A stretch of DNA of 64,000 nucleotides from Microcella alkaliphila (GTDB lineage: Bacteria > Actinomycetota > Actinomycetes > Actinomycetales > Microbacteriaceae). A program made the position numbers and the translations under genes. Positions 18,938-59,453 of this stretch are shown here, in pieces. How positions within the stretch are numbered: the stretch's first letter is position 1; each line of letters starts with the position of its first letter. Below the pieces are notes generated by a model. It did no database searches and was not told the DNA's origin. It saw nothing but the letters and a program-made list of their open reading frames with translations. Location of the stretch: positions 62,001-126,000 of the forward strand of contig NZ_SGXT01000013.1 of assembly GCF_004216855.1 (NCBI RefSeq). The letters run 5' to 3'.

Positions 18938-19026
18938 CGTACGTTGTGCAGGAGTACAGCCGGCTCCGGCGCGTAAGCACGCGTCCCCTGCAGCGGGGTC
19001 GAGGCTGTACTCCTGAGAAACGTCAC
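18938..19026. repeat. Palindromic dispersed element, copy A
   Basis: The 89-bp element has an intact right arm (CTGTACTCCTGAGAAACG then TCAC, 19005-19026) and a partly decayed left arm (ACGTTgtgCAGGAGTACAG, 18941-18959) in inverted orientation. The 45-bp core differs from the other copies but contains its own small hairpin CCCCtgcagcGGGG. It lies upstream of the DUF559 gene, which carries copy B at its end; copies C and D are at 51461 and 58231. Confidence 0.85.
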
Positions 19027-19118
19027 GCCGCTCCCTCACACCCGCGGGCGCTTTCACCCGCAGCACATGTCCGCAATCCGGTGCTCAGGGCTGGGTGTCG
19101 ACACGCCATCGTCGCGCC

Positions 19119-20018
19119 ATGTTCGTACTCAACCCACTCAACGTTTACTCGCGATCCGATCTCCTCGCGTCTGTGCCCATCTCGGCCGTGCGTCGAGCAA
19201 TCGCGCGGGGCAATCTTCTCCGCCTTCGCCGCGACGTGTACGTCAGCCCAGCAATGCCGCCTCGCATGCAAGAGGCTCTCGCCATCGGCGGCAGTCTGTG
19301 CTGCGTCTCGGCGCTCGCTGAACGCGGAGCCTGGCATCCTCCCGCGCGCGGTCTACATCTCACTGTTCCGCACAATGCGTCTCGGCTCGCCCGTCCGCGC
19401 AGTGGGGCGCACGCTGTCACCGTTCACTGGAGCATGGATGAGGTCACGCGGCCACTGTCGACCGTCGACGACGCGCTTACCCGGCTCTTGGCATGTCAGC
19501 CCCGGCGGATGTCGATCGCAGTACTTGACAGCGCCCTGCGCGCAGGGATGGTCGACGCCGAAGGTGTGAACCAGGCAAACGCTCGAGTCCCCGCAGTCTT
19601 CAGGGTCTCGCCCGGTGAACTCGACGCGACGGCCGAGTCGGGTATCGAGTCGCTCGTGCGCGTGGCGTTGCGAGACGCGGGGTTGCGGGTGGCGTCCCAG
19701 GTCGTGATCCCGGGCGTCGGGCGCGTTGACTTCCTTGTTGAAGGCCGTGTCATCGTCGAGGTGGATGGCCGCGAGTGGCATCGCGGAGAGCAGGAGCGCG
19801 ACTACCGGCGCGACCTCGAGGCGGTGCAGCGCGGGTATCGCGTTGTGCGGGTCGACTACGAGCACGCTGTCGCGCACGCCCCGTTGGTCGTCGCCGCCGT
19901 GGTGCGGTCGGCCTCAGCCGCAGCCGGCATTGGCGAGGGCGTGACGTTTCTCAGGAGTTCAGGCCCGTCGCGCGCGGATTTACGCGACAACGTCGGCGGG
20001 CAGGCGCTCTACTCCTGA
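19119..20018 (+). CDS. AbiEi-like / DUF559 nuclease-fold protein
   Basis: A protein of 299 residues. The N-terminal 45 residues (YSRSDLLASVPISAVRRAIARGNLLRLRRDVYV) look like the winged-helix domain of AbiEi-type proteins. The C-terminal part, about residues 195-262, is a DUF559/Vsr-like nuclease fold: VDFLVEGRVIVEVDGREWHRG, then RDYRRDLEAVQRGYRVVRV, with the Asp...Glu-x-Asp catalytic pattern. Such proteins are common in actinobacteria with unproven function. Residues 275-299 (VTFLRSSGPSRADLRD...YS) and the stop codon are encoded entirely by palindromic element B. A GTG eight codons upstream is an alternative start; neither has a convincing ribosome binding site. Copy A lies 92 bp before the ATG, so the gene is bracketed by the element. 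Confidence 0.75.
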   Translation: MFVLNPLNVYSRSDLLASVPISAVRRAIARGNLLRLRRDVYVSPAMPPRMQEALAIGGSLCCVSALAERGAWHPPARGLHLTVPHNASRLARPRSGAHAVTVHWSMDEVTRPLSTVDDALTRLLACQPRRMSIAVLDSALRAGMVDAEGVNQANARVPAVFRVSPGELDATAESGIESLVRVALRDAGLRVASQVVIPGVGRVDFLVEGRVIVEVDGREWHRGEQERDYRRDLEAVQRGYRVVRVDYEHAVAHAPLVVAAVVRSASAAAGIGEGVTFLRSSGPSRADLRDNVGGQALYS

Positions 20019-20028
20019 GAAACGTCAT
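19941..20028. repeat. Palindromic dispersed element, copy B
   Basis: An 88-bp element with arms GTGACGTTTCTCAGGAGT.. (19941-19962) and the reverse complement at 20007-20028, the arms matching at about 19 of 22 positions. It begins exactly on a codon boundary of the DUF559 gene and supplies that gene's last 25 codons and its TGA. The core contains GTCGCG..CGCGAC, a further internal pairing. Confidence 0.9.
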
Positions 20029-51276: not shown

Positions 51277-51460
51277 TCCGAGCGACGCGACGTGCCCCGC
51301 GCATCCCCGTCACATTTCGTAAGCGCCCGCGGCCTCCCCGCCCGGGCCCACACACCGACGCTCGCCAGCACCCCGCCTCCGCACGCGGATCAGCGCATCG
51401 TGGGCGGCCCATCGGCGGTTCCCTTGGGCCGACCGAGGGTCGCTGAAGGGCGACTCTCGC

Positions 51461-51549
51461 ATGACGTTTCTCAGGATTTCAGGTGCTCGAGACCGATAAC
51501 TCCCGCGTGTATCCGGGCAGACCGCACCTCTACTCCTGAGAAACATCAC
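51461..51549. repeat. Palindromic dispersed element, copy C
   Basis: An 89-bp element with arms ATGACGTTTCTCAGGATT.. (51461-51482) and the inverted arm at 51528-51549 (CTACTCCTGAGAAACATCAC). It sits in the 484-bp gap between divergent metY and the DUF418 gene. Apart from this element and the two promoters, nothing else was found in 51265-51748. Confidence 0.9.
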
Positions 51550-51735
51550 GCAGCCCGCGGCCGGCGGCGCTGCAGCCAGTCGCACGGCGGCGCAGGCGCG
51601 TGTCGAGCGCGGGGCGGGGCTACGGTGGGCAGGCTTACCGGTGGTTCGAGGTGGCGGCCCCGGCTCGGCCGTGCGGCTGAGGCGGGGGATGCGCGAATCA
51701 CTCCACAGGCTGAGGCGCGCCTCGCCACGCACCCC

Positions 51736-51741
51736 TAGCGT
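51736..51741 (+). promoter_or_regulatory. Leaderless -10 element of the DUF418 gene
   Basis: TAGCGT, 7 nt, ATG at 51749. Confidence 0.5.
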
Positions 51742-51748
51742 TGAGGCC

Positions 51749-52975
51749 ATGACCGAGTCGACACTCGCCGCCCCCACTCCCCGCCTGAAGCGGGCCGCCG
51801 CTCCCGACGTCTCCCGCGGGCTCGTGCTCATCGGCATCGCGTTGGCGAATGTGCCGTTCTTCCTGTTCGGCACTGAGCTCGGCATTGCCCTGAAGCCGGT
51901 GTCGGATGACGCGACCGACCAGTGGACGAACGTCTTCGTCGCGATGCTGTTCGACAACCGCAGCTACCCGCTGTTCGCTCTGCTGTTCGGCTACGGCATG
52001 ACGCAGCTGATGACCCGCGAGTACACACGTGGGGCGAGCTGGGAGGACACGCGTCGTCTGCTGATTCGCCGCAACCTGTGGTTGATCGCGTTCGGCGCCG
52101 CACACGGCGTGCTGCTGTTTTTCGGCGACTTTCTCGGCCCCTACGGTCTGCTCGGCCTCGCCCTGGTGCTGCTCATCCGGGCCTCGGGCAAGGTGCTCGC
52201 GATCGTCGGCTGGATCTGCTTCGGGATGCTCGTGCTGATTGGCGCGTTTGAGGGCCTGAGCGGGCTGTTCGGCACAGTCGACGGCGGCATGACGACCGGG
52301 GCCCCGTTCGGCTCGGCTGCGGCCGACTCGTTTGGAGTCGCTGTGCTGCTTCGCGCCGGCGAGTGGTTCGTGCAGATGATTGGCATGCCGTTCGGCGGTA
52401 TCGGCCTGCTCGCGCCGATGATCCTCGGCATGTGGCTCGCCCGCCGCCGGGTGCTCGAAGACCCGACCCCGCACGTGCGTCGACTCGGGCTTGCCGCCAG
52501 CGTCGGCATCAGCGTCTCCCTGCTCGGCGCCGTGCCGCTCGCGCTCGCCCTACTCGGCGTCGTTGAGTACGGCATCTTCGTCGAACCTCTCGTGACCATG
52601 CTGCACGCGGGTACCGGAGCCGTGGGAGCGGTCGGCTACGTCGCCCTCATCGCGATCCTCGCCGGGCGCCGCGAAACCCCCGGCCCGATCAGCCGCATCT
52701 TCGCGACCCTCGGCCAGCGCTCGCTGAGCGGTTACCTCACCCAGTCGCTCGTGTTCCTCATCGTGTTCGCGCCGTACGCGCTCGGGCTCGGCGACCAGCT
52801 CGGTATCGCCGAGGCCAGCCAGATTGCTGTCATTACCTGGCTCGGCACGCTGATCGCGGCGAACGTGCTTGCGGCCGTCGACAAGCCCGGCCCGGCCGAG
52901 TGGGCGCTGCGGAAGCTCGTCTACCGTCCCCGGCGCCGAGCTACACCCAGCTCGGAAGCCAATAGCGCCAGCTGA
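51749..52975 (+). CDS. DUF418 membrane protein
   Basis: This 408-residue protein has about ten hydrophobic segments. The N-terminal PDVSRGLVLIGIALANVPFF, the motif FDNRSYPLFALLFGYGMTQLM and RRNLWLIAFGAAHGVLLFFGDFLGPYGLLGL are hallmarks of the YeiB/DUF418 family, and the C-terminal LGQRSLSGYLTQSLVFLIVFAPYALGLG is the DUF418 domain itself. The function is unproven. The end overlaps the convergent mannosyltransferase gene by 35 bp. Confidence 0.9.
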   Translation: MTESTLAAPTPRLKRAAAPDVSRGLVLIGIALANVPFFLFGTELGIALKPVSDDATDQWTNVFVAMLFDNRSYPLFALLFGYGMTQLMTREYTRGASWEDTRRLLIRRNLWLIAFGAAHGVLLFFGDFLGPYGLLGLALVLLIRASGKVLAIVGWICFGMLVLIGAFEGLSGLFGTVDGGMTTGAPFGSAAADSFGVAVLLRAGEWFVQMIGMPFGGIGLLAPMILGMWLARRRVLEDPTPHVRRLGLAASVGISVSLLGAVPLALALLGVVEYGIFVEPLVTMLHAGTGAVGAVGYVALIAILAGRRETPGPISRIFATLGQRSLSGYLTQSLVFLIVFAPYALGLGDQLGIAEASQIAVITWLGTLIAANVLAAVDKPGPAEWALRKLVYRPRRRATPSSEANSAS

Positions 52976-54449
52976 GCTGGTCGAGCGGTAGCGGCAGGCC
53001 CATCCACACGGGCAGGAAGAACACGCTCACGACGACGACGAGCGCGCCGATGACGAGCAGCGCTACCCGCCCGCCTCGGCGCAGGATGCCGTCGGCCACC
53101 ATGGCCAGTCCGATCACGAGAAACGGCACGAGCACGATCGTGTAGAAGAAGAACGTGGTGCGCTCGGGGTAGAGCAGCCACGGCAGCCAGCCGGCCGCGA
53201 CCCCGGTGAGCACGACGGTGGCGGGGAGCGCGCCGCCCGAGAAAATGCGCAGACGCGACCACGCGCATCCCGCCGCAATGATCAGAAGCGCAGCCCACGC
53301 GAGCCACCAGATCAGCGGGTTCGGCAGTCCCGTGATGCCGACCGCGACGCCCTCCGTGACCTCGTCGTAGTGCATATAGGTGGGGCGCACGAGCAACGGC
53401 CAGAGGGCGGCGGGCGCCTCGTAGGCGTGCGGCGTCGACTCGCCGACGTGGTAGCCGTACACCTCCTGCTGGTAGCGCCACAGCGCGGCGAGAGCGTTCG
53501 TGCCGTGGTCGCGGCCCCAGCCGCCCGAGGTGGCGAACCAGCCGGTCCAGGTCGCGACGTAGGCGAGCAGAGCGGCCGGCACGGTGAGGAGGAACGACGC
53601 GGGCCCCTGCAGCAGTATCCCGCCCGAGAACCAGAACGGCACGCCCGCGCGTCGCCGATCGACCGCGTCGAGCACGACGCTCATGAGTGCGAACGCCGCG
53701 AACAGGTACAGGGCGCTCCACTTGATGGAGGCGGCGAGCCCGAACGTCGCCCCGAACGCGATGAGCCACGGGCGGCGCCACAGCACCGGCCCCCAATCGT
53801 CGCGGACGCGACGCGACGGGGGATGCTCGTCGCCCGGATGCGCATACGCCGCGATGCGGGGTGCGAGCCGCCGCCCGTACTGCCCGCGGTCGAGCGTCCA
53901 GAAGATGACGGCGCCCACGACGGTGAGTGCGAGGAAGCCGTCGAGCAGCGCGACGCGACTCATGACGATCGCGGAGCCGTCAATGGCGATCAGCCCACCC
54001 GCGATCATGCTGAGGGTGACGTTCTTCGTGAGCAGGTGGGCGAGCAGCATCACCAGCCCGACGAGCGCGATGCCGGCGATGGCGGCCGACAGGCGCCAGC
54101 CGACCGGGTTGCCGGTGCCGAACGCGGCGAGGCCGAGGGCGATCAGCCACTTGCCGAGCGGGGGATGCGCGACAAACGCGCCCTCCACGGCAGGGCGGGT
54201 GAGCTCGCCCGACTCGAAGCGCGGGTTCGGGTCGTCGGGCCAGCGACCCTCGTAGCCGTACGCGAGCAGCGACGCGGCATCTTTCACGTAATACGTCTCG
54301 TCGAAGACGAGGGTCTCGGGGGTGTCGAGTCCGATGAGCCGGGCGGCCGCGGCCACGCCGATGATCGCGGCGGGGACGCCGATGCGCACGGCCCGCGGCA
54401 GTCTCGTCGCCGACCGGGGGCCTGAAACGGTCGGCGTCTGCACGGTCAC
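52941..54449 (-). CDS. pmt: Protein O-mannosyltransferase
   Basis: This 502-residue GT39 membrane enzyme transfers mannose from polyprenyl phosphate to secreted proteins. It shows RLIGLDTPETLVFDETYYVKDAASLL (with the essential DE pair in the first outer loop), HPPLGKWLIALGLAAFG, and the C-terminal PMT_4TMC region (FFFYTIVLVPFLVIGLAMVADGIL). Its place next to divergent rsmI is the same as Rv1002c-Rv1003 in Mycobacterium. The GTG start at 54449 lies 6 nt from a TAGCAT -10. Confidence 0.92.
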   Translation of the reverse strand: MTVQTPTVSGPRSATRLPRAVRIGVPAAIIGVAAAARLIGLDTPETLVFDETYYVKDAASLLAYGYEGRWPDDPNPRFESGELTRPAVEGAFVAHPPLGKWLIALGLAAFGTGNPVGWRLSAAIAGIALVGLVMLLAHLLTKNVTLSMIAGGLIAIDGSAIVMSRVALLDGFLALTVVGAVIFWTLDRGQYGRRLAPRIAAYAHPGDEHPPSRRVRDDWGPVLWRRPWLIAFGATFGLAASIKWSALYLFAAFALMSVVLDAVDRRRAGVPFWFSGGILLQGPASFLLTVPAALLAYVATWTGWFATSGGWGRDHGTNALAALWRYQQEVYGYHVGESTPHAYEAPAALWPLLVRPTYMHYDEVTEGVAVGITGLPNPLIWWLAWAALLIIAAGCAWSRLRIFSGGALPATVVLTGVAAGWLPWLLYPERTTFFFYTIVLVPFLVIGLAMVADGILRRGGRVALLVIGALVVVVSVFFLPVWMGLPLPLDQLSWRYWLPSWV

Positions 54450-54455
54450 GCGCTC

Positions 54456-54515
54456 ATGCTAGCCGCGGGTTTCGCGCTCCCCGCCGCACGTCGCGGCAGG
54501 CCCGCGTGCCAGAGT
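54456..54515. promoter_or_regulatory. Divergent leaderless promoters of pmt and rsmI
   Basis: TAGCAT (minus strand, 54461-54456) is 6 nt before the pmt GTG, and CAGAGT (plus, 54510-54515) is 6 nt before the rsmI GTG. Confidence 0.45.
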
Positions 54516-54521
54516 GGAGCC

Positions 54522-55337
54522 GTGATCGTGCTCGCCGCCACTCCCATCGGCAACCTCGGCGACGCCAGCCGCCGCCTCATCGAGGTGCTCGAGGCGGCGC
54601 CCGTGGTTGCCGCCGAAGACACACGCACCGCCGCGCACCTCCTGCGCGCCCTCGGGGTCGAGAACCGCCCGAAGCTCGTCGCGCTGCACGAGCATAACGA
54701 GCGCGCGGCATCCGCCGACCTCGTTGAGGCGGCGCGTGACGCCGACCTCGTGGTGCTGACCGACGCCGGGATGCCCGGCATCAGTGACCCCGGATACGTC
54801 CTCGTCGAGGCGGCCATCGCCGCGGGTGTCGACGTGACCGCGATCCCCGGACCGAGCGCGGTGCTCACCGCCCTCGTGCTGAGTGGGCTGCCCACCGACC
54901 GCTTCGCCTTCGACGGGTTCGTTCCCCGCAAGGGCCGGGTCGCGTGGGCGCGGGGGTTGGCGACCGAGCAGCGCACCATCGTGGTGTTCGAGGCGCCGCA
55001 CCGCATCGGCGCCTCGCTCGCCGACCTCGCTCTGGGTTTCGGGTCGGAGCGCCGCGCCGCCGTCTGCCGCGAGCTGACGAAGAAGTTCGAGGAGGTCGCG
55101 CGCGGCACTCTCGGCGAGTTGGCCGAACGTTTTGCCGACGGCGCCCGGGGCGAGCTCGTCGTCGTCATCGAGGGAGCGCCCGCGCTCGCCGCCGACCTGC
55201 CGAGCGCGGTCGCCGAGGTGCTGGCCCGAGCCTCGGCGGGGGAGCGCCTGAAGGCTGCGGCCGCCGATGTCGGAGCCGCAACGGGCCTCGGCACCCGCGA
55301 GCTCTACGAGGCGGCGCTCGCCGCCCGGCGCGGGTAG
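54522..55337 (+). CDS. rsmI: 16S rRNA 2'-O-methyltransferase RsmI
   Basis: This 271-residue tetrapyrrole-methylase-fold enzyme methylates C1402 of 16S rRNA. It begins VIVLAATPIGNLGDASRRLIE, with VVAAEDTRTAAHLLRALG, LVVLTDAGMPGISDPGYVLV, TAIPGPSAVLTALVLSGLP and FEAPHRIGASLADL, all strongly conserved. The GTG is fixed by the family N terminus, which starts directly at the first strand. Confidence 0.94.
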   Translation: MIVLAATPIGNLGDASRRLIEVLEAAPVVAAEDTRTAAHLLRALGVENRPKLVALHEHNERAASADLVEAARDADLVVLTDAGMPGISDPGYVLVEAAIAAGVDVTAIPGPSAVLTALVLSGLPTDRFAFDGFVPRKGRVAWARGLATEQRTIVVFEAPHRIGASLADLALGFGSERRAAVCRELTKKFEEVARGTLGELAERFADGARGELVVVIEGAPALAADLPSAVAEVLARASAGERLKAAAADVGAATGLGTRELYEAALAARRG

Positions 55338-55341
55338 GCCG

Positions 55342-55818
55342 CTACTCACAGCTGTCGGTGAGGCGCAGACGCACCGGCGCGCTGAGCACCTGTGTGTCGG
55401 TCGTGATGTCGACCACTTCGAGCAGGGCGTCTCCCCGGCCATCGCGCCGCACCGCGAGCGCGATGTAGCCCGCATCGCCCGGTTCGAGCACGGTGCCGCC
55501 AAGGTCGGAAACCGTCGCGCCCTCGGCCGCGCGGTCGGCGCGGCTGCCACCGAAGATGACCGGCTCGGGGTCGCCCTCGCCGTCGAACGGCTCGAACCAG
55601 CTGTCGACGACGGTGCCGCCCGAGAGTTCCTGGGCCGTCATTGACTCGATGACGACCGGGTCGTTGCTGTTGTTGACCAGCCCGAACGACGCGCTGCCGA
55701 CCTGCCCCTCGGTGACGGGGCGGCACCCCTCGAGCCCGTCGGCGAGCACCGAGCCGGGGGCGCAGCTCGCGACGAGCGCGACGCTGGCGACGATCGAGAG
55801 GAGTGCGCGCATCCGCAT
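55342..55818 (-). CDS. Putative lipoprotein
   Basis: This 158-residue protein has a lipoprotein signal (LLSIVASVALVASCAPG, Cys at residue 19) and a secreted beta-rich domain (VGSASFGLVNNSNDPVVIESMTAQELSGGTVVDSWFEPFDG, ALLEVVDITTDTQVLSAPVRLRLTDSCE). Two further cysteines (GCRP and DSCE) could form a disulfide joining the two ends. No family is recognised. The start is supported by TAGGTT 6 nt upstream. Confidence 0.75.
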   Translation of the reverse strand: MRMRALLSIVASVALVASCAPGSVLADGLEGCRPVTEGQVGSASFGLVNNSNDPVVIESMTAQELSGGTVVDSWFEPFDGEGDPEPVIFGGSRADRAAEGATVSDLGGTVLEPGDAGYIALAVRRDGRGDALLEVVDITTDTQVLSAPVRLRLTDSCE

Positions 55819-55824
55819 GCTTTG

Positions 55825-55830
55825 AACCTA
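55825..55830 (-). promoter_or_regulatory. Leaderless -10 element of the lipoprotein gene
   Basis: TAGGTT on the minus strand, 6 nt before the ATG at 55818. Confidence 0.5.
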
Positions 55831-55853
55831 CCGAACGGGGCTGTAACTTGCGG

Positions 55854-56495
55854 CTACGCACCCCAGCCGTGATCGGCGAGAAACGCCGCGCACTCGGACG
55901 TCCAGCGCTCGGCGTCGCCCGAGCCGGATGCGAGCCCCAACCCGTGCACGCCGGACGGGTAGACGTGCAGCGTGTGCGGCACCCCGTGCCGGGCGAGCGC
56001 CGCACCCAACAGGTAGGCGTGCTCAACCGGCACGAGCGCATCGTCGGCGGTGTGCCACACGAACGTCGGTGGCATCGCGGGCGTGACGAGGTGCTCGATC
56101 GACGTCGCGCGGCGGGCGCGCCGCCCCGGGCGCGGCCCGAGCAGGTTCTCGCGCGATCCCGCGTGGGTCGGGGTGAGCATCGACACCACGGGATAGCAGA
56201 GCACCGCGAGCTCGGCGAGGCCCGTCGCGGCCGCGTGACCCGCGAGGTGGCCGCCCGCGGAGAAGCCGAGCACGCCGACCCGCTGAGCCCCCGACGACCG
56301 CACCTGCGCGATGTGGGTGCGTACAGCATCCAGGGGGCCGGGGTGGCGGGTGGCGACCGGGTAGCGCAGCACGCTCGCGGCGACGCCGAGCGTGCGCAGC
56401 CAGTCGGCGACCGGCTCGGCCTCGTGGTCGGCGTGGCGGGCGTAGCCACCGCCCGGCAAGACGACGATGTGGTCGCGGGCGTTCGTGTCGGTCAC
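55854..56495 (-). CDS. Alpha/beta hydrolase (BD-FAE/esterase-like)
   Basis: This 213-residue esterase-like protein has HIVVLPGGGYARHADHEAEPVADWL (the PGGGY oxyanion motif of the hormone-sensitive lipase and BD-FAE groups), the nucleophile elbow GFSAGGHLAGHAAA (Ser), the acid in TADDALVPVEHAYLL and the His in SGVHGLGLASG. It starts at GTG 56495 with CATACT 6 nt upstream. The substrate is unknown. Confidence 0.85.
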   Translation of the reverse strand: MTDTNARDHIVVLPGGGYARHADHEAEPVADWLRTLGVAASVLRYPVATRHPGPLDAVRTHIAQVRSSGAQRVGVLGFSAGGHLAGHAAATGLAELAVLCYPVVSMLTPTHAGSRENLLGPRPGRRARRATSIEHLVTPAMPPTFVWHTADDALVPVEHAYLLGAALARHGVPHTLHVYPSGVHGLGLASGSGDAERWTSECAAFLADHGWGA

Positions 56496-56501
56496 TCGGG
56501 C

Positions 56502-56563
56502 AGTATGCCCCGCGCGCGCGTGCCCCGCGCGCGCCGGGCGCGCAGCCGCCGCCCGCCTAGAAT
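56502..56563. promoter_or_regulatory. Divergent promoters of the esterase and metG
   Basis: CATACT (minus, 56507-56502) is 6 nt before the esterase GTG. TAGAAT (plus, 56558-56563) is 9 nt before the metG ATG, giving at most a 2-3 nt leader. Confidence 0.45.
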
Positions 56564-56572
56564 GGGGCAATC

Positions 56573-58162
56573 ATGGCCACAGCCCCCACCTTCTCGGTCA
56601 CCACCCCGATCTTCTACGTCAACGACGCGCCGCACATCGGCCACGCGTACACGGAGGTCGCGGTCGACGTGCTCGCCCGCTGGAACCGGCAGTGCGGCGT
56701 CGAGACCTGGTCGCTGACGGGCACCGACGAGCACGGCCAGAAGATCTTGCGCACGGCGGTCGCGAACGACGTCACCCCGAAGGAGTGGGCCGACAAGCTC
56801 GTCGCCGACGCGTGGATTCCGCTGCTTGAGACGATCGACATCGCCAACGACGACTTCATTCGCACCACGGAGGAGCGGCACGAGAGCGTCGTGCAGGCGT
56901 TCCTGCAGAAGCTGTACGACGACGACTTCATCTACTTCGGCGAGTACGAGGGCTACTACTGCGTCGGCTGCGAAGAGTACAAGCAGCCCGACGACCTCGC
57001 GCAGGGCACGGGCGAATTCGAGGGTCAGTACGTCTGCCCGATTCACGGTCGCCCCGTCGAGGTGCTGAAGGAGGCCAACTACTTCTTCCGCATGAGCGCG
57101 TTCGGCGACCGCCTGCTCGAGCTGTATGAGACGCAGCCCGACTTCATCCAGCCCGACAGCCTGCGCAACGAGATCGTCTCGTTCGTGCGCCGCGGCCTCG
57201 ACGACCTGTCGATCTCGCGCCAGAGCTTCGACTGGGGCGTGCGCGTTCCGTGGGATGAGAAGCACGTCTTCTACGTCTGGTTCGACGCGCTCATTAATTA
57301 CATCTCTGCCCTCGGCTGGCGCGCCGATCAGCCCGGCGAACTGTTCCAGAAGTTCTGGCCCTCGAACCACATCGTCGGTAAAGACATCGCCCGCTTCCAC
57401 GCCGTCATCTGGCCGGCCATGCTCATGGCCGCAGGCCTGCCGACCCCGCGCCGCGTGTTCGGGCACGGCTGGCTGCTCGTCGGCGGCGAGAAGATGTCGA
57501 AGTCGAAGCTCACCGGCATTGCTCCGGCGCAGATCACCGACGTGTTCGGCTCCGACGCGTTCCGCTACTACTTCCTGCGCGCCATCTCGTTCGGCCAAGA
57601 CGGTTCCTTCTCGTGGGAGGACCTCGCCGCCCGCTACCAGGCCGAACTCGCCAACGGCTTCGGCAACCTCGCCTCCCGCGTCGTCGCGATGATCGGCCGC
57701 TACTGCGACGGGCGCGTACCCGCCGCGGGCGACCTCGATGAGGCGGATGCGCGCATCCGTTCGGTCGTTGAGTCGGCCGTCGAGCGCGCGAGCGCCGCGA
57801 TGGACCGCTTCGCGATCCACGAGGCGATCACTGCGATCTGGACGATCGTCGACGAGCTGAACGGCTACCTGACCGAGCAGGAGCCGTGGAAGGTCGCGAA
57901 GGACGAGTCGAAGGTCGAGCGCCTGCACACGATCCTCGCGACCGCGGCGGAGGGGCTGCGCGCGCTGAGCGTGCTGCTCGCCCCCGTCATGCCGAAGTCG
58001 ACCGCCCAGCTGTGGACGGCGCTCGGCGCCGAGGCCGCCATCGGTCCGCTCGCAGAGCAGCGTGTCGACGGTGTCGCCGCGTGGGGCCAGCTGCCCGCCG
58101 GTGCCGAGGTGTCGCCGCTGCCGCCGCTGTTCCCCCGCATCGAGGCCGACCAGCTCGGGTAG
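56573..58162 (+). CDS. metG: Methionyl-tRNA synthetase
   Basis: This 529-residue class I synthetase charges tRNA with methionine. The HIGH signature is at residues 21-24 (NDAPHIGHAY), and KMSKS at about 307-311 (LLVGGEKMSKSKL). A zinc-type insert with CVGCEEYKQPDDL and a later CPIHGRP is visible, as is WFDALINYISALGW. The anticodon-binding helical domain follows (SWEDLAARYQAELANGFGNLASRV). There is no C-terminal tRNA-binding EMAP domain, as in other short actinobacterial MetRS. Confidence 0.95.
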   Translation: MATAPTFSVTTPIFYVNDAPHIGHAYTEVAVDVLARWNRQCGVETWSLTGTDEHGQKILRTAVANDVTPKEWADKLVADAWIPLLETIDIANDDFIRTTEERHESVVQAFLQKLYDDDFIYFGEYEGYYCVGCEEYKQPDDLAQGTGEFEGQYVCPIHGRPVEVLKEANYFFRMSAFGDRLLELYETQPDFIQPDSLRNEIVSFVRRGLDDLSISRQSFDWGVRVPWDEKHVFYVWFDALINYISALGWRADQPGELFQKFWPSNHIVGKDIARFHAVIWPAMLMAAGLPTPRRVFGHGWLLVGGEKMSKSKLTGIAPAQITDVFGSDAFRYYFLRAISFGQDGSFSWEDLAARYQAELANGFGNLASRVVAMIGRYCDGRVPAAGDLDEADARIRSVVESAVERASAAMDRFAIHEAITAIWTIVDELNGYLTEQEPWKVAKDESKVERLHTILATAAEGLRALSVLLAPVMPKSTAQLWTALGAEAAIGPLAEQRVDGVAAWGQLPAGAEVSPLPPLFPRIEADQLG

Positions 58163-58230
58163 TCGGCGCTCCCGCGTCTGTCACGCGTGGCGGAGGCCGT
58201 CACACGCCCGGCCCAGCCTGTCGGCGCGGC

Positions 58231-58319
58231 GTGACTTTTCTCAGGAGTGCAGCGTGGCCGGGGCCGAAAACTGGCGGGGTCGATGAGCCGTACCTGCCTG
58301 AACTCCTGAGAACCGTCAC
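58231..58319. repeat. Palindromic dispersed element, copy D
   Basis: An 89-bp element with arms GTGACTTTTCTCAGGAGT.. (58231-58252) and its inverse at 58298-58319 (GAACTCCTGAGAACCGTCAC). It fills the intergenic space between metG and tatD. Its core shares CCGAnAACTnnCGnG with copy C. Confidence 0.9.
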
Positions 58320-58418
58320 GCCCGACCCGGCGGAGCGTCAACCCCCAGCGACCCCCGCGTGCCGGTCAGTAGACTCGCCTGCGCGGTCGGGGTGCCCGGC
58401 CCAGGAGGCGAGAACTGC

Positions 58419-59453
58419 ATGACCGAGGCGATCGACCCGCACATCCGCAAGCGCGCGGCCATGGAGGACACCACCCGCGACCTCGCCTATCCGCCCGCTC
58501 CGGAGGCGCTCGTCGTGCCCGTGTACGACAACCACACGCACCTCGAGATTGCCGACGGTGAGAACCCGCTGCACTACCGCGACCACCTCGACAAGGCGAG
58601 TGCGGTCGGCGTGCGCGGGGTCGTGCAGGTCGGCACCGACGTAATCACGAGCCAGTGGTCGGCGGCGGTCGCCGAGCGCGAGCCGCGCGTGTTGGCCGCG
58701 GTCGCGATTCACCCGAACGAGGCCCCGAAACTGGATGCTGAGGGCACCCTCGACGACGCGCTGGCCGTCATCGACGGCCTCGCCCAGCAACCGCGTGTTG
58801 TCGCCATCGGCGAGACGGGGCTCGACTACTTCCGCACCGACGAGGGGGGACGCGAGGCGCAGTTGCGCGCGTTCGAGGCCCACATCGAGTTGGCGAAGCG
58901 GCACAACCTGGCCCTGCAGATCCACGACCGCGACGCGCACGACGACGTCGTGGCGACCCTGTTGCGGGTGGGCGCCCCCGACCGCGTGGTGTTCCACTGT
59001 TTCTCGGGCGACGTCGAGCTGGCGTCGATCTGCGCCGAGCGCGGCTGGTTCGCTTCGTTCGCCGGCACGGTGACGTTCAAGAACGCCCGCAACCTGCGCG
59101 ACGCCCTCGAGGTGCTGCCGCGCGCCCTGCTGCTCGTCGAGTCGGACGCACCGTTCCTCACCCCGCACCCGCACCGCGGGCGACCGAACGGGCCCTACCT
59201 GCTGCCGTGGACGGTGCGCGCCATGGCCGACGCGATCGGCACCGACGCCTCGATGCTGGCGGCACAGCTGAGCTCGAACACCGAGAACGTCTACGGCCAC
59301 TGGGACGACAACCCGGTGGTGGCCCCAGGCGACCCGTGGGCCGACCGGCCCGCCGATGATGCGGCCGACGCCACGCAGCACGACATTCCGGGCGACCCGC
59401 ACGATTTCACCCCGTCGGCCCCGCATTCGGGCGACGCCGCGGGCGACGACTGA
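58419..59453 (+). CDS. tatD: TatD family DNase
   Basis: This 344-residue metal-dependent hydrolase has the ligands in [10 protein letters not shown] (His-x-His), [12 protein letters not shown] (Glu), [13 protein letters not shown] (His), [11 protein letters not shown] (His) and [17 protein letters not shown] (Asp). TatD proteins act as 3'-5' exonucleases. The C-terminal 55 residues ([20 protein letters not shown]...) are an acidic, proline-rich extension beyond the family end. GGAGG 5-8 nt before the ATG is the ribosome binding site; TAGACT upstream (58370-58375) may be the -10. It overlaps nothing and is followed 1 nt later by rsmA. Confidence 0.93.

Follow-up and report, generated by a model that had tools for sequence, protein, structure and literature searches.

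Structure of the palindromic elements

The question raised by this locus is why a nuclease gene of Microcella alkaliphila should lie between two copies of a palindrome, further copies of which stand alone elsewhere in the genome. The window, which is the whole 64-kb stretch of DNA analysed (from the genome labelled G000), contains four palindromic elements of about 89 bp, none of them assigned to a strand. Element A (18938..19027; ssDNA folding z -4.0) is located upstream of the nuclease gene, element B (19940..20028; z -7.2) covers the 3' end of the gene, and elements C (51460..51549; z -4.4) and D (58230..58319; z -3.3) are dispersed solo elements. The gene itself (19095..20018, plus strand) codes for 299 amino acids from ATG 19119, or for 307 from the alternative start GTG 19095. 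The original prediction placed element A 92 bp before the ATG and took element B for the last 25 codons and the stop, and the coordinates agree with this: the ATG follows the end of element A by 92 bp, and element B codes for the final 25 or so codons together with TGA 20016-20018. The prediction of four elements of 88-89 bp also stood as to number and size, but the 22-bp arms assigned to them did not, the exact arm of element B being 17 bp and the arms of element A being 21 bp with 3 mismatches.

The core TGACGTTTCTCAGGAGT, searched with up to 3 mismatches, matched the window 7 times, whereas 100 shuffles averaged 0.09 matches and never exceeded 1. In element A the left arm (18941-18961) is a TGCAGGA variant and the right arm is a CTCAGGAGT variant, reading TGTGCAGGAG and TTCTCAGGAG, respectively, at the corresponding place; owing to this difference the core search detects only the right arm of A. 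Genome-wide, about 11 elements were found, with 22 arm matches, including an unpaired one, when no more than 1 mismatch was allowed and 0 in the reversed control, and a second arm variant gave 4 arm matches at 3 further places. The four copies counted originally are those of the window, and the arms are not confined to these four places.

Comparison of G000 with its sister genome G390 showed that the arms had changed at 4 of 224 sites and the centres at 43 of 369 (Fisher p 5.5e-6), in 7 of the 9 shared elements, elements A and F being omitted because they gave no gap-free alignment. The lower rate of change identifies the arms as the constrained part of the element, and the centre between them is variable, as predicted. 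No symmetric pairing was detected in the centre, where positions 20-41 were paired in 71 of 210 cells from 10 elements of G000, while the six slid controls, with 197-220 cells, gave 60-78. Among the Plantibacter copies of the element described below (35 of 38 unique copies), 27 compensatory changes were counted, which was no excess over the shuffles (mean 23, maximum 36). With centres unpaired beyond controls in Microcella and no excess of compensatory changes in Plantibacter, the hairpin was rejected as the conserved feature in favour of the arm sequence, and the negative covariation tests favour recognition of double-stranded arm sequence over a hairpin substrate.

Among the elements listed, the spans from CTCAGGAGT to ACTCCTGAG were mostly close to 58-61, 70-73 and 82 bp, approximately one helical turn apart; in this small sample, such a spacing would be compatible with two proteins sitting on one side of the helix. 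At three Agromyces loci (L082, L083 and L084), elements of about 82 bp contain the CTCAGGAG motif a third time, in their interior.

The nuclease gene and its product

The window protein matched Pfam DUF559, a family of unknown function in the Pfam listing, at residues 196-268, and MTES_1575 at residues 186-255, below the curated cut-off. Only nuclease models were matched, with no AbiEi match and no match to an NCBIfam model. A profile built from 38 homologues matched the structure 3hrl (E 4.2e-13) and the 'mobile intron protein' 3r3p (E 9.6e-9), which we take to be I-Bth0305I, and it matched Vsr weakly (E 0.02-0.05), so that the gene is described here as coding for a Vsr/EDxHD-like nuclease. 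In the homologue alignment the nuclease residues D212 and D236 were invariant, and E185 and E222 were nearly so. DUF559 and MTES_1575 were matched by all 38 homologues at E 0.01 and AbiEi_4 by 19 of them, and single PADLOC models called AbiEi matched up to 22 homologues. The AlphaFold model of the window protein alone had a mean pLDDT of 39, and no reading given here rests on it. The gene downstream of the nuclease gene is on the opposite strand and reads from its sequence as an aldo/keto reductase, and no gene for an AbiEii toxin was recognised next to the nuclease gene of the window, nor, by the product names of neighbouring genes, in four annotated relatives.

Matched palindromes on both sides of DUF559 genes

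DUF559 matches were present in 47 of 119 sampled Actinomycetota genomes, with up to 10 in one genome, and the flanking of these genes by palindromes was measured with a bracketing score, defined as the minimum of the upstream palindrome, the downstream palindrome and the similarity of their arms. The 87 scored loci comprised 30 from Microbacteriaceae and 57 from the Actinomycetota phylum sample. The former came from genomes chosen for carrying CTCAGGAGT elements (34 DUF559 matches, 30 with loci, all 30 scored); the latter came from 135 matches, 3 of them in G000, among which 58 with long frames away from contig ends were picked by hand and 57 were scored after locus L266, at a contig end, had been dropped. 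For the control of mismatched pairs, an upstream flank was joined to a downstream flank belonging to a different gene from a different source.

The expectation that DUF559 genes are flanked more often than by chance was confirmed. Of the 87 loci, 43 scored at least 9. The same threshold was reached by 28 of the 2175 mismatched pairs and by 6 of 513 pseudo-gene windows placed outside the scored units. At a score of at least 11 the corresponding numbers were 30 of 87, 4 of 2175 and 2 of 513, and at a score of at least 14 they were 16 of 87 loci and 0 of 2175 mismatched pairs. One of the two pseudo-gene windows scoring at least 11 lay in L294, which contains real dispersed elements, and the other in the dropped DUF559 locus L266. 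An earlier, looser scoring (38 of 87 real loci against 701 of 7482 mismatched pairs) was replaced by the tighter zones used here. By set, 25 of the 30 Microbacteriaceae loci and 18 of the 57 loci of the phylum sample reached 9, and in 19 of the 43 bracketed loci the downstream palindrome spanned the stop codon. The remaining 44 of the 87 loci, 39 of them from the phylum sample, scored below 9, which implies that the arrangement is not universal or that the detector misses cases; L050 scored 0 in the tight scoring though a pair was seen by the looser one.

The arm sequences differ from one DUF559 gene to another. In Actinomyces oris (NZ_CP116225.1, gene product WP_271289585.1), the palindromes on either side each span 122 and share their arm sequences, giving a score of 19.5; at locus L066 of the Plantibacter genome G266 the arms are of the CTCAGGA form; and in the genus labelled g90 (G451, G484 and G506; loci L235-L291) 7 of 9 scored loci were bracketed, mostly by mutually different arms. 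One g90 genome had up to 9 DUF559 matches. Across 32 dereplicated bracketed loci, obtained by identity from 38 loci scoring at least 9.5, the similarity of the proteins was weakly correlated with that of the arms (rho 0.166), a value reached in 1 of 5000 permutations. A first view of the DUF559 link as accidental, taken from 34 DUF559 places in 11 genomes and a partial element list, was overturned because other genes of the family have arms of their own.

On mobile replicons, matches were found in 4 of 72,556 plasmid records and 1 of 50,697 phages. Two of the plasmid loci were bracketed (L355, score 11.5; L357, score 19.5) and two were not (L354, 4; L356, 5.5), and among viral contigs there were 22 pattern matches, none of them coding for a relative. 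Two near-perfect 58-bp palindromes in G080 (L023 and L034), with CTCAGGAGT ends and an inner CAGGAG, had no recognised partner; the two DUF559 loci of that genome scored 0 and 7, and this counts against the link. Single CTCAGGAGT matches in G041, which has no DUF559 match, and in G048 were not used as support, being close to chance (about 0.5 estimated from equal base frequencies; one place in the reversed control), nor were the matches in Bacteriovoracaceae, Lentisphaerae and Myxococcales MAGs, where about 6 were estimated on the same assumption.

Co-occurrence of gene and elements in Microcella and Plantibacter

Among the matches listed for 26 Microcella genomes, a near-full-length match to the gene was present in three, G000, G390 and M. 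putealis (G401), and in the other genomes at most the part coding for the nuclease domain was matched. Paired elements were present in the same 3 of 26 genomes, being of the CTCAGGAGT type in G000 and G390 and of the TGCAGGA type in G401, with a few of the latter in G000. In the remaining genomes the search for the CTCAGGAGT type gave scattered single matches, at most 5 per genome (at most 3 in the reversed control), and the search for the TGCAGGA type gave none. Paired elements are thus not found in all strains, but in those with a near-full-length match to the gene. The M. putealis orthologue is flanked by elements at the two positions occupied in G000, and elements are also present at the shared sites C, F and G, the one at site C lying at the same place with TGCAGGA arms. 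The 10 arms of M. putealis at A, B, C, F and G comprised 7 of TGCAGGA, 2 of CTCAGGAA and 1 of CGCAGGA; in G000, 9 of 10 were CTCAGGA. At the D site of M. putealis (L100) there are two elements, one of each arm type. Another Microcella genome, G409, had four TTTCGCAGGAGT matches (C2:7023, C3:1967079, C3:2105584 and C3:2259360), possibly a further arm variant with a nuclease gene of its own.

A second type of element, with CTGAGTCGCCCG arms and named here after locus L070, occurs in Plantibacter. Among the matches listed, it was found at distinct places numbering at least 16 in G303, at least 18 in G266, at least 15 in G050, at least 12 in G175 and at least 11 in G224; the counts for G303 and G266 include one 24-base partial match each, and those for G303, G266, G050 and G175 include the pair flanking the gene. 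Each of the four Plantibacter genomes with the gene thus has roughly 10-16 dispersed copies. The gene was matched in 4 of 7 Plantibacter genomes (G303, G266, G050 and G175), all of which carry L070-type elements. G224 has the elements without a match to the gene, and G333 and G120 have neither among the matches listed, which for G120 were six of seven weak ones. Movement of the unit to a new locus is not claimed in Plantibacter, where the units seen lie in one broad locus together with other inserts.

Differences in element presence between related genomes

Empty sites were found in related genomes, the presence of elements differing between relatives at four sites (D, H, E3 and E1/2). Element D is present in G000 and absent from the same place in G390; H is present in G000 and G390 and absent in G401. 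In Plantibacter, E3 is present in G303, G266, G224 and G050 and absent in G175, G120 and G333, and at E1/2 there is a solo element in three genomes, none in G120 and two elements in G303 and G266. The solo E1/2 element lies directly behind a stop codon. The two E1/2 elements of G303 (L294:1372-3631; G303:C1:1109871-1112130), which are of the L070 type, surround a 2.1-kb segment with hydrolase-like and regulator-like ORFs that is also found in G266, so that bracketing by the elements is not limited to the nuclease gene. A whole palindrome-gene-palindrome unit is present in G175 at the place where G224 has one solo element.

At the sites differing in presence no target-site duplication was seen by eye, and the empty alleles were altered for a short distance at the junction. 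No new insertion event was seen among the relatives compared. Nine of the 11 elements of G000 are shared with G390, where D is absent and G was not located, so most of them look old, which speaks against recent activity.

Discussion

The matched bracketing, the gene-specific arms, the constraint on them, the co-occurrence with the gene, the differences in presence and the nuclease homology are direct observations, and the explanation we favour, with moderate confidence, is that the nuclease is self-targeting: the palindromes would be its cognate sites, nuclease and palindromes would be functionally analogous to REP/RAYT, and the protein would spread the elements. The palindromes are very probably the cognate sites of the nuclease, to which it would bind. 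AbiEi binds an 11-bp inverted pair with N27 between the copies, extending to 23-bp arms, at its own promoter, according to a portion of the text of PMC3985639. Taken with the nuclease profile matches and the AbiEi matches of the homologues, this leads us to infer that the N-terminus would read the arms and the C-terminus would cut. The protein, combining a DNA-binding N-terminus of AbiEi type with a nuclease C-terminus of Vsr/EDxHD type, would recognise both inverted arms of its own element, one element lying on each side of the gene and solo copies over the chromosome. The arms would be sequence-specific, different between genes and evolving jointly with the protein. The protein would bind them and most likely nick or cut at or beside the element, and such cutting would move the element: repair or copying at the cut might spread solo elements and perhaps also the DNA between two elements. 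Recombination between two elements could leave a solo copy. Mobilisation by the protein is presented here as a proposal.

Nothing mobile would be needed if the elements were operators of an AbiEi-type regulator with a nuclease domain, the upstream copy serving autoregulation and the others a small regulon or insulation. This is unlikely in our view, but several results agree with it: AbiEi has a comparable inverted-pair binding site ahead of its own gene (part of the text of PMC3985639), the conservation lies in the arms and not in the centres, compensatory changes are not in excess, and most elements are shared with the sister genome (9 of 11). What argues against operators is the matched copy downstream of the gene, which spans the stop codon in 19 of 43 cases, together with the 11-18 or more places per genome in five Plantibacter genomes, the differences in presence between relatives, the solo E1/2 element just behind a stop codon, and the retention of the nuclease residues (D212 and D236 invariant, E185 and E222 nearly so). 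A selfish homing nuclease, as in the case of free-standing homing endonucleases, would cut chromosomes lacking the unit, so that repair copies the unit in, with solo elements as recombination scars of lost units. Kinship of the nuclease domain with a mobile-intron endonuclease, the occupation of one site by the full unit in G175 but by a single solo element in G224, and junctions that look replaced rather than duplicated all point in that direction. Yet every solo element at an unrelated site would then require a past full unit, and the Plantibacter gene of the L070 type lies in one broad locus while its solo copies are many; homing would explain a single site but not the dispersal, and we regard it as improbable.

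The differences in element presence, and the one case in which other genes are bracketed, would also fit remnants of ordinary insertion sequences, in which the palindromes are the terminal repeats of an unrelated transposase and the DUF559 genes are passengers. However, the arrangement recurs with different arms at 43 of 87 DUF559 genes and the arms track the protein, neither of which is expected of passenger genes, and this origin is very improbable. Chance palindromes or terminators in GC-rich DNA are hardly credible. A scan of 51300-58500 did give 8 terminator-like sites where 1.9 were expected, but the two weak matches near C and D abut the elements and are not the elements themselves; the shuffles and the other controls argue against chance, no intrinsic terminator-like site was found across A, the gene and B, and nothing in the window matched Rfam. 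Nor is it a property of terminators to share arms across the two flanks of one gene while differing from gene to gene. The palindromes thus do not look like intrinsic terminators, and the self-targeting nuclease remains the preferred reading.

The comparison of gene and palindromes with REP sequences and RAYT transposases, made in the original prediction, is supported, and the link now extends from one gene to many DUF559 genes. REP/REPIN elements with RAYT (TnpA-REP) tyrosine transposases, and TIRYT units, are described by Di Nocera 2013 (PMC3733652), and in the portion of that text used here they share several features with the present system: a gene with short palindromes on both sides and further copies of them elsewhere in the genome, with dispersal seen here for two arm types; families that differ between species; and copies mostly outside genes, near 3' ends and sometimes in coding sequence. 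The same portion also reports CGTC repeats without a dedicated transposase. As far as that portion goes, the DUF559 system differs in having a Vsr/EDxHD-type nuclease, with an AbiEi-type N-terminus in many homologues, instead of a HUH tyrosine transposase (Y1), and elements mostly of 45-100 bp with gene-specific arms instead of tagged 20-40 bp REP sequences. No Y1 family was among the six Pfam families listed for the window protein and 37 homologues, and inspection by eye of the window elements (about 89 bp, with symmetric arms) showed that a GTAG tag is missing from their ends and that CGTC is confined to the paired arm. DUF559-linked elements number about ten to twenty copies per genome in those seen. 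Since both the HUH transposase and the tagged 20-40 bp repeat are absent, the unit is not filed under REP/RAYT.

The likeness to the AbiEi antitoxin of type IV toxin-antitoxin systems lies in the related domain of 19 of 38 homologues, a domain not matched in the window protein, and in the inverted arms upstream of the gene itself (PMC3985639, from part of its text). In contrast to AbiE, the domain here forms part of a nuclease protein, the upstream site has a downstream counterpart, further sites are dispersed, and the window gene has no bicistronic layout. With EDxHD/Vsr-type homing endonucleases the system shares nuclease domain homology (3r3p and 3hrl), but the gene is free-standing with palindromes on both sides and the element sites are many; no RNA family, introns included, was found in the window with Rfam. 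MITEs and insertion sequences have short inverted repeats and occur in solo and gene-carrying forms, as here. The present elements differ from them in the variable centre and in having no recognised transposase in the unit, and no target-site duplication was seen by eye at the four sites that differ in presence. As none of the families compared takes the arrangement in, the palindrome-DUF559 association is regarded as a new kind, although on a stricter view it would be a variation on REP/RAYT. In agreement with the suggestion that it was undescribed, no description of DUF559 genes with palindromes was found in the open-access literature.

A wider reading, which we advance tentatively and hold at slightly less than even, is that of a new class of mobile or selfish element, in which DUF559 nuclease genes would drive palindrome-gene-palindrome units with their own arms as ends and would spread solo palindromes. 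Several units with distinct arms would coexist in one genome, and the class would have radiated across Actinomycetota by co-evolution of protein and arm. From the matched palindromes in the genome sequence a DNA target can be predicted for a DUF559 gene, which makes its function directly testable, and the question arises whether a nuclease also partners other orphan palindromes. Should the elements prove mobile, they would represent a second, independently evolved solution to the role played by REP and RAYT, with nuclease variants that each carry a readable target.
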